Origin: an uncultured Spirochaetales bacterium
Lineage (GTDB): Bacteria > Spirochaetota > Spirochaetia > Sphaerochaetales > Sphaerochaetaceae
Length of the DNA: 38,351 bases
NCBI GenBank assembly: GCA_949295675.1
Contig: CASFMA010000019.1
Coordinates: 1 to 38,351, forward strand
Direction: 5' to 3'
Positions within the stretch are counted from its first letter, which is position 1. Each line of letters opens with the position of its first letter. This document shows, in pieces, positions 2,917 to 18,306 of the stretch. The position numbers and the translations under genes are program-made. Below the pieces are notes generated by a model. The model was not told where the DNA came from. It worked only from the letters and a program-made list of their open reading frames with translations, and did not search any database.

Positions 2917-2926
2917 AGACTGAAGG

Positions 2927-2954
2927 ATAATACTATTTCCATTTCTGTTGTATA
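2927..2954 (-). promoter_or_regulatory. Putative promoter of the DUF4105 gene
   Basis: On the minus strand, TATACA (2954-2949), a 16-base spacer and TATTAT (2932-2927). The -10 ends 10 bases before the ATG at 2916, so the transcript would have only about 3 bases of leader, consistent with the missing ribosome site. Confidence 0.45.
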
Positions 2955-2956
2955 TG

Positions 2957-2985
2957 TTGACAGCCATTTATGCGTTTCATATCTT
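2957..2985 (+). promoter_or_regulatory. Sigma-70 promoter of recO
   Basis: A perfect TTGACA (2957-2962), a 17-base spacer and TATCTT (2980-2985). Transcription is expected to begin near 2992, one base before the recO ATG at 2993, and no Shine-Dalgarno is present. The same -10 hexamer recurs in the rpsU promoter. Confidence 0.7.
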
Positions 2986-2992
2986 CATATCC

Positions 2993-15835: not shown

Positions 15836-16621
15836 TTAGTTTTCTTTCTCCCCGCTTTTTTTCTCTGCAAGCACGCACGATGAGAAATCGTGAGCGTTGT
15901 AGATATGTTCCCTTGTGAGCTTGTCAATGCGTGAAAGCTCTGATATCACAGGCTTGAGCCTTGCCCTGACATTGGTCTGGTCGTATGGGCAGACAGGCTT
16001 GACGACAGGAAGGTCATAGCTCTCTGCAAGCCTTCTTACAACGCTCTCCCTTGTCTCTATAAGCGGCCTTATTATATGGAGCTTCCCATCAAAGAAAGGC
16101 TGGACTGGGTGCATTGTCTCGAAATCTGCCCTGAAGCACAGGTTCATGAGCGTCGTCTCTGCAAGATCATCCAGATGATGGCCCATGGCTATAAGGCTTA
16201 TCCCTTCCTGCGAGGCCTTCTCGAAGAGTATCCTTCTTCTGTTCCTCGCACAGAGATAGCAGTTGAAGCTGCCCTTGAATGAGTCAGGATGCTGTGCCTC
16301 CGAGAGGATCCTGAAATCTATGTCCAGCGCGTCAAAGTATCTGTAAAGCTCTTCTTTCTTCTCTTCAGGGATCGGATGCTCTATCCAGTCGATCATTATG
16401 GCCTCAAGGCTATAGCTGACAGGAAGCCATCTTCGCCTTATCGAGAGGGCAAGGGACATGGCAAGAGAGTCCTTTCCTCCAGACGCTGCGATAAGGACCT
16501 TGTCTCCGCCCTGTATCATCCTGTAGTTGTTTATGGCCCTGCCGACTCCCTTCACGAACCTCATAACCCATGGCGGCATGTCCCCGTTTATCAGGTCGGC
16601 GTAAGATAGCTTCTCATCCAT
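15836..16621 (-). CDS. TtcA-like tRNA sulfurtransferase (PP-loop ATPase)
   Basis: A 261-residue cytoplasmic protein of the TtcA/TtuA group, which adenylates a base and adds sulfur through a [4Fe-4S] cluster; TtcA makes 2-thiocytidine at tRNA position 32. The PP-loop is SGGKDS (47-52). Cluster-ligand candidates are C121 and C124 (NCYLCARNRRR) and C211 (VCPYDQTN), spaced as in E. coli TtcA. GHHLDDLAET is the second nucleotide-binding motif. The order and single third cysteine favour TtcA over TilS, but the substrate base cannot be read directly. AAGGTGG lies 6 bases before the ATG, and the gene starts 8 bases inside the HD gene. Confidence 0.82.
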   Translation of the reverse strand: MDEKLSYADLINGDMPPWVMRFVKGVGRAINNYRMIQGGDKVLIAASGGKDSLAMSLALSIRRRWLPVSYSLEAIMIDWIEHPIPEEKKEELYRYFDALDIDFRILSEAQHPDSFKGSFNCYLCARNRRRILFEKASQEGISLIAMGHHLDDLAETTLMNLCFRADFETMHPVQPFFDGKLHIIRPLIETRESVVRRLAESYDLPVVKPVCPYDQTNVRARLKPVISELSRIDKLTREHIYNAHDFSSCVLAEKKSGEKEN

Positions 16622-17906
16622 GCCTTACCACCTTGAATGCCTCAAGCGCATCATCCTCGGAAACATAGGAGGGCAGGTAAAGCGCTGCGTTTCTCAGGCT
16701 TGATGAGAAGAGGCTTCCTGCTTTCTGGAATATGAGGCCTATCGCGGAAGCGTCTGACACTGTCCCGTCAGGCATGAGTATCTTTATATCTGTCTCGAAG
16801 CTTATCGGCTCGGGAATGTCTATTATGACGTCCTCCTTCCTGAGCGATGGATATCCTTTTTTGAGTATGCTTAGCACCTTGTCCTCAGCCAGATATCTTG
16901 TCTCTATCCTTTCAGCCTCTTCCGTGAGTGTTTCTCCTTCCCTGTATCCAAGCTCCGCCTTCCTCTCAAGGAGCCTGCCATGCTCAACGTCACGGATAAG
17001 CGAGAACGGACCGTAGTCCGAGAATCTCTCCTGCAGGGCGTAGAACTCATAGTCATCCTTGAGATAGAGGTCGTTGAAGGTTATCACATTCTCCCTGAGC
17101 GCTGTCAGTATGGCTTTCTTTATCATGGCAGTGGCGCTCCTGACACCTTTATGCCAGTAGAGATTGCGATACATCATGTATTTTGAGAACAGGACTTGCT
17201 CTACTGAGCTTATCGCGCTCTTGTCAAGAAGCAGAGTTCCGTCTGAAAGGGAGAGCGATGTGATTATGTAGTCAGTGTCCTGCCTGCCATATGGTATGCC
17301 GGCGAAGAACGCATCGCGAGAGAGATAGTCCAGCTTGTCAGGATCCAGGGTGCCTGAGAGTATCCTGCGGTATATCGCTGTCTCCGGATCGCCGCAGCTG
17401 CAGTCCTTGTCTATGATCATGGCTGTCATTTCCCTATCCGCCCCAGCCTTGGATATTGCCGCTCCAAGCTCATCGTCTTCCTCTATAAGATGCCTGGCGA
17501 TCTCCTCATGCTCCATCATCGAAAGTTCCTTCAGCGAGTGCGCATACGGGAAATGCCCTATGTCATGCAGCAGACAGGCTGCAAGGAAGCTCATCATCCC
17601 TTTCCCTGTGAATGGAAGCTCCGTGCTTTTGCGCGCTATCGAGAGCAGCATCTCCCTGCCTATATGGTAGACCCCTATAGAGTGGTTAAGCCTTGTATGC
17701 ACAGCTCCAGGATATATGTGGTATGCAGGTCCGTTCTGCTTGATCCTTGAAAGTTTCTCAGCAGCCTGCGTGTCAAGTATTGCCTTGAGCCCTTCTGTGA
17801 ATGGCACATTGCCCCACAGGGGATCCTTTACAGAGTGGATGAATCCGCTTTCAAGCAAGTTAAGTGCTTCTTCTCTTCTCATGAGAGAGAAGATAGCATA
17901 TTTCAC
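16614..17906 (-). CDS. HD-superfamily phosphohydrolase (COG1078-like)
   Basis: A 430-residue HD-domain protein resembling SAMHD1/dGTPase-like enzymes that hydrolyse nucleotides. Metal ligands are visible as H75 in HTRLNHSIGV, H114-D115 in LLHDIGHFPYAH and D193 in LDPDKLDYLSRDAFFAGI. The C-terminal 200 residues are helical with no recognised extra domain. Substrate is unknown; dNTPs are a reasonable guess. The start is uncertain: GTG at 17906 lies 8 bases after a TATAGT -10 (leaderless), while an in-frame ATG at 17882 gives MRREEALNLLES. Neither has a Shine-Dalgarno. It overlaps the TtcA-like gene by 8 bases and is divergent from the small secreted-protein gene. Confidence 0.82.
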   Translation of the reverse strand: MKYAIFSLMRREEALNLLESGFIHSVKDPLWGNVPFTEGLKAILDTQAAEKLSRIKQNGPAYHIYPGAVHTRLNHSIGVYHIGREMLLSIARKSTELPFTGKGMMSFLAACLLHDIGHFPYAHSLKELSMMEHEEIARHLIEEDDELGAAISKAGADREMTAMIIDKDCSCGDPETAIYRRILSGTLDPDKLDYLSRDAFFAGIPYGRQDTDYIITSLSLSDGTLLLDKSAISSVEQVLFSKYMMYRNLYWHKGVRSATAMIKKAILTALRENVITFNDLYLKDDYEFYALQERFSDYGPFSLIRDVEHGRLLERKAELGYREGETLTEEAERIETRYLAEDKVLSILKKGYPSLRKEDVIIDIPEPISFETDIKILMPDGTVSDASAIGLIFQKAGSLFSSSLRNAALYLPSYVSEDDALEAFKVVRHG

Positions 17907-17914
17907 GTTCCATC

Positions 17915-17922
17915 ACTATAAT
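17915..17922. promoter_or_regulatory. Symmetric bidirectional -10 element
   Basis: Minus-strand TATAGT (17920-17915) and plus-strand TATAAT (17917-17922) share the same four central bases. Start codons lie 8 bases (GTG, HD gene) and 6 bases (ATG, secreted protein) beyond each hexamer. The whole region between the two start codons is only 22 bases, too short for a ribosome site on either side. No good -35 is seen in either direction. Confidence 0.6.
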
Positions 17923-17928
17923 GCAGCT

Positions 17929-18306
17929 ATGCTGAAGACTGCGTGTTTGGTTTGCATCATACTCTCCTCATTCCCTGTTCTCGCCGTCGCGCCGATATCA
18001 GGAGCGATAGGGGAGGTCGCCACTGAGGTCGTGCCCGGCTCCATCACAGAGACTGCCCTCGAGGCTTCTGCTGAGCTTTATACAGAGCAATGGCTTGAGA
18101 AATATACAGCCTCCCCATATGAATTCGGAGAGGCTTATTCCGATATCCTAAGTGATCTCCTGCCCCTGCAGAATCCTATAGCCGGCAGGGAAAGGAACGG
18201 CGCCGTTGATGTCCAGGACTTGGACACAGGCACTGTCCTTTCATTTGTCTTCCAGGATGGCAGGATCGCCGCCATCCTTCCTGTCAGACAGAGCGAAGGG
18301 ACCTGA
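17929..18306 (+). CDS. Small secreted protein of unknown function
   Basis: A 125-residue protein. The ATG at 17929 gives a signal sequence (MLKTACLVCIILSSFPVLAVA) with a plausible cleavage after Ala-Val-Ala; Cys9 is not in a lipobox. The mature part is acidic, with helical TALEASAELYTEQWLEKYT and a short beta-rich tail (GTVLSFVFQDGRIAAILPV). The open frame extends upstream to 17716 but runs antisense through the HD gene, so the longer form is rejected. A perfect TATAAT ends 6 bases before the ATG and there is no ribosome site, predicting a leaderless mRNA. The last 23 bases overlap convergent pepF. No family recognised. Confidence 0.6.
   Translation: MLKTACLVCIILSSFPVLAVAPISGAIGEVATEVVPGSITETALEASAELYTEQWLEKYTASPYEFGEAYSDILSDLLPLQNPIAGRERNGAVDVQDLDTGTVLSFVFQDGRIAAILPVRQSEGT

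Follow-up and report, generated by a model that had tools for sequence, protein, structure and literature searches.

In the stretch of DNA analyzed here, a contig of 38,351 nucleotides from an uncultured Spirochaetales bacterium of the gut (hereafter, the window), an HD-domain phosphohydrolase gene and a gene for a small secreted protein diverge from a 46-bp intergenic region (17883..17928). Comparison with relatives indicates that this region probably contains two separate, overlapping sigma-70-type promoters, each starting transcription at or next to the start codon of the gene it serves. The minus-strand promoter, an extended -10 reading TATGC-TATCTT (17890-17900), would produce a leaderless HD-phosphohydrolase mRNA from ATG 17882, and the plus-strand promoter, with its -10 TATAAT (17917-17922), would produce a leaderless mRNA for the secreted protein from ATG 17929. 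The initial annotation of this locus had described a 22-base divergent region in which one symmetric -10 served two leaderless genes. The two back-to-back leaderless starts are supported, a -10 at leaderless distance being conserved for each gene throughout the genus; one -10 common to both is not supported, and with the HD start at ATG 17882 the true intergenic length is 46 bp.

The HD gene (16614..17882, minus strand) encodes a protein of 422 aa identified by its Pfam matches (HD, 1e-6; HD_assoc_2, 2e-15). Homologues were gathered from 60 relatives, which are not independent of one another, and those belonging to the same genus (Ca. Ornithospirochaeta, Spirochaetaceae) are about 48-84% identical. 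The minus-strand ORF is open as far as GTG 17906, with ATG 17882 lying 24 nt further in. In a protein-guided alignment, the codon aligned with 17882 reads ATG, GTG or TTG in all 41 genus genomes, the window included. The GTG at 17904..17906, previously taken as the HD start, is a start codon in the window only and in 0 of 40 same-genus relatives; at the equivalent position, L002 has CGG, L053 has GGA and L003 has GAG. An in-frame stop stands directly ahead of the HD start in L072 and L035, and 12 nt ahead of it in L004 and L006. The extra eight residues that the longer reading would add (VKYAIFSL in the window) owe their apparent conservation in the closest species solely to the overlapping promoter; with the gene start corrected, this apparent N-terminal stretch would be promoter sequence read as codons.

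Upstream of the corrected start, the motif TGnTAnnnT ends 6-9 nt ahead of the start codon in 39 of 41 genomes, the window among them, with a spacing of 6 nt in 25 genomes and 7 nt in nine; TAnnnT is rare, near zero, at other spacings. In the window the extended -10 ends 7 nt ahead of ATG 17882, which gives a predicted +1 at 17882-17883. The -10 hexamer takes nine forms (TACTCT, TATCTT, TATATT, TATCCT, TAATTT, TATTTT, TAAGCT, TATTCT and TAATGT), so that TG, TA and the final T of the extended element are constant and the n positions vary; the counting required the TGnTAnnnT motif, which makes the constancy of these bases partly a product of construction, but not the spacing peak. Constant key bases combined with varying free bases are the pattern expected of selection on a promoter. 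The two exceptions (L030 in genome G014 and L033 in genome G001) have an AGGAGA Shine-Dalgarno site ahead of a TTG start instead. For HD genes outside the genus the upstream context differs, and inspection by eye found no leaderless motif there.

On the plus strand, the secreted-protein gene (17929..18306) encodes 125 aa with a signal peptide and belongs to no known family: neither Pfam nor NCBIfam yielded a match, and an AlphaFold2 model (pLDDT 88) found no significant fold match in the PDB (best E 0.026). The ORF is conserved: a search of 48 genus genomes found it in 44, including all 24 of good quality, and at each of the 29 loci with enough flank it adjoins the HD gene. At its 3′ end it overlaps a convergent oligopeptidase-F (pepF-like) ORF by 23 bp (18284-18306). 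In the window the open reading frame continues a long way upstream, and starts upstream of ATG 17929 were considered and rejected because several relatives have an in-frame stop 15-18 nt ahead of the ATG. In 28 of 29 genomes the orthologous start follows the end of a -10-like hexamer by 6-8 nt, and no other spacing has more than three such hexamers; in the window the hexamer is TATAAT, 6 nt ahead of ATG 17929, with a predicted +1 at 17929. In many relatives the plus hexamer reads GAGAAT, AAGAAT or GAAAAT, weak at position -12, and in four of them it can also be read as a Shine-Dalgarno site. The window itself has no Shine-Dalgarno site ahead of ATG 17882 or ATG 17929, as leaderless starts would have it, and the initial annotation was right that none precedes ATG 17929 or GTG 17906.

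The symmetry that had suggested a single promoter resides in the octamer ACTATAAT on the plus strand at 17915-17922. As described in the initial annotation, TATAAT (plus strand, 17917-17922) and TATAGT (minus strand, 17920-17915) overlap, with the four bases 17917-17920 in common. The spacings given there, 6 nt from TATAAT to ATG 17929 and 8 nt from TATAGT to GTG 17906, are likewise correct as letters, but the second does not lead to the HD start. Since 0.61 occurrences of ACTATAAT are expected per window by chance, the octamer alone is unsurprising, and the weight of evidence for it is its position and conservation. In a four-way alignment of the window and its three nearest relatives two blocks are invariant, GAAGATAGCATA (the HD extended -10) and ACTATAAT, and the sequence separating them varies. 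The AC that completes TATAGT next to TATAAT is invariant in 4 of 4 clade members, whereas elsewhere, beyond the two blocks, invariance is seen in only about 3 of 26 columns, and a -10 serving the plus strand only would not need the octamer to be conserved whole.

If ACTATAAT acted as one bidirectional -10 making both mRNAs, with the HD protein translated leaderless from GTG 17906, the overlap of the hexamers on both strands and the invariant AC would be explained, and the implied separation of starts, about 21-23 bp, would fall within the range of E. coli bidirectional promoters (18, 10 and 23 bp; PMC12825309). This reading is nonetheless highly improbable, given that GTG 17906 is not a start codon in any relative, that the HD gene owns a conserved extended -10 ahead of ATG 17882, and that outside the window's clade the octamer is absent, yet both genes and both leaderless -10s remain. 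Moreover, the conserved starts and -10s predict transcription starts 46-47 bp apart, not some 10-23 bp. An HD protein that starts at ATG 17882 and has a promoter of its own is the arrangement that the initial annotation had named as incompatible with its proposal, and it is the one to which the comparative evidence points. TATAGT (17915..17920, minus strand), invariant in the four-genome clade and absent in other relatives, is therefore probably not the HD -10, a role that falls to the separate extended -10 kept in 39 of 41 genomes.

TATAGT could still fire leftward in this clade in addition to the HD gene's own leaderless promoter, yielding a minor transcript with a leader of about 24 nt. The invariance of AC against its variable surroundings favors such an addition, as does the finding that -10 symmetry yields divergent transcription in E. 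coli (PMC12825309). Against it, the clade comprises just four sequences, AC might instead be a remnant or belong to the HD promoter's -35, and the resulting leader would have no ribosome site before ATG 17882; we consider this addition unlikely. Under the preferred reading of two separate promoters, the -10 hexamers at 17890-17895 (minus) and 17917-17922 (plus) lie on opposite strands with overlapping polymerase footprints.

The wider genus offers a different view of the symmetry at this locus. In many relatives the start codons are 61-67 bp apart, and a single symmetric octamer, TTSACAAA on one strand and TTTGTSAA on the other, stands between the two -10s, placed to serve as a -35 in both directions (at 17 nt from the plus -10 and 15-17 nt from the HD -10). 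Most members of this group have TTGACA, TTCACA or TTTACA at 17 nt, or close to it, upstream of the plus -10, which is usually preceded by TGn. The window and its three nearest relatives have a start spacing of 47-48 bp, 17 bp shorter, and lack TTSACAAA; at the window site there is no convincing -35 for either promoter, and a consensus -35/-10 scan, of little informative value here, gave no match. In terms of sequence, then, the shared symmetric element of the wider genus is a putative -35, and in the window's clade the two predicted -10s stay separate. Plausibly, the shared -35 disappeared with a loss of 17 bp, for which a full-consensus plus -10 compensated in this clade.

The same spacing signature is seen beyond this locus. 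Genome-wide tests were performed on partial samples of 140-271 kb with simple ORF calls. A strong -10 at 6-7 nt before the start marks 24 genes in G000 (271 kb) against 7.7 expected (P = 2e-6) and 23 genes in G033 (260 kb) against 6.6 expected (P = 5e-7), an excess of strong-motif genes amounting to about 8% of genes in these two samples; G025 has the same spacing peak. No excess of strong -10s at leaderless distance was found in the 140-kb sample of G014 (L114-L120), with 3 against 2.4 expected. Given that G014 lacks the signature and that both G014 and G001 have a Shine-Dalgarno-led HD gene, their lineage may have moved away from leaderless starts, and these sister species, with one gene switched to a Shine-Dalgarno start, provide a natural comparison.

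These data also bear on whether the -10-like motifs are promoters at all. Transcription might come from elsewhere, the motifs being coincidental AT-rich sequence or translation signals, and the purine-rich plus hexamers of some relatives could indeed be weak ribosome sites. The tight spacing peak of 6-7 nt on both sides, the 17-nt spacing to TTSACA in many relatives and a genome-wide spacing peak that is absent in G014 all speak against this interpretation, to which we assign very little credence.

Divergent pairs in which each gene has a -10 at leaderless distance recur in these genomes. In G000, G033 and G025 together there are 14, where shifted spacings predict about 2.1; their starts lie 44 bp or more apart, many of them near 63-66 bp; a scan from 20 bp up found no pair with a shared -10 and a spacing of about 22 bp. 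The window itself contains another compact divergent pair (2917..2992) in which both genes are predicted to be leaderless and whose layout is kept in relatives. Its plus-strand gene (ATG 2993) is recO, identified by TIGR00613, and shows TTGACA-N17-TATCTT-N6/7-ATG in five genomes (the window, with N7, and four relatives). Its minus-strand gene (ATG 2916) is presumably DUF4105-like, going by the motif of that family. Further pairs of this kind were observed at L105 (5573/5621), L106 (9928/10000), L109 (16417/16480), L142 (8380/8449) and L092 (3090/3134), with starts 44-72 bp apart across these five.

Returning to the two promoters of the 46-bp region, their predicted starts would be 46-47 bp apart, and therefore the two polymerases would have to occupy the same ~50 bp and would be expected to exclude each other; translation of both messages would proceed by leaderless initiation. 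More tentatively, these spirochaetes may possess a recurrent unit made of back-to-back leaderless promoters with start codons some 44-93 bp apart, often arranged round one symmetric -35 common to both and, in the clade of the window, also containing a symmetric -10; such a unit would couple the transcription of two genes with leaderless messages. If this is right, divergent gene pairs throughout the genus are packed round ~45-90 bp, with the promoter making up the whole 5′ context of either gene; translation control would then have to act via leaderless initiation, and exclusion between polymerases could tie the two genes together.

Each component of this arrangement has precedents. Leaderless bacterial genes of the TA-led type lack a Shine-Dalgarno site and carry TAnnnT some 10-12 bp ahead of their start codon (Zheng et al. 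2011, PMC3160421), and they have already been reported in spirochaetes, in 6 of 18 genomes and for a mean of 3.9% of genes (PMC3160421); dRNA-seq of Leptospira interrogans revealed ~440 leaderless mRNAs (PMC5243855). Both genes described here resemble TA-led genes in having a -10 at leaderless distance and no Shine-Dalgarno site, but they diverge across 46 bp, the double form recurs across the genus, and the strong-motif estimate is about 8%. For Ornithospirochaeta, the titles and abstracts searched included nothing transcriptomic, and the literature searched held no description of two divergent leaderless promoters recurring in one genus, an absence that argues only weakly for novelty. Promoters that fire in both directions from one symmetric -10 are an established class, their starts commonly lying 10-23 bp apart (Warman/Grainger; PMC12825309). 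The locus shares with them two overlapping -10-like hexamers on opposite strands, but by comparison the HD -10 appears to lie elsewhere, and in relatives the shared symmetric element would be a -35. The P_CR/P_M promoters of EcoRV are divergent with overlapping polymerase sites (modelled in PMC5333194); here too the sites overlap and occupancy is predicted to be mutually exclusive, but no regulator is known and both messages are predicted to be leaderless. Leaderless genes and overlapping divergent promoters are thus both known, and their recurrent combination, as read from these sequences, would be modestly new.
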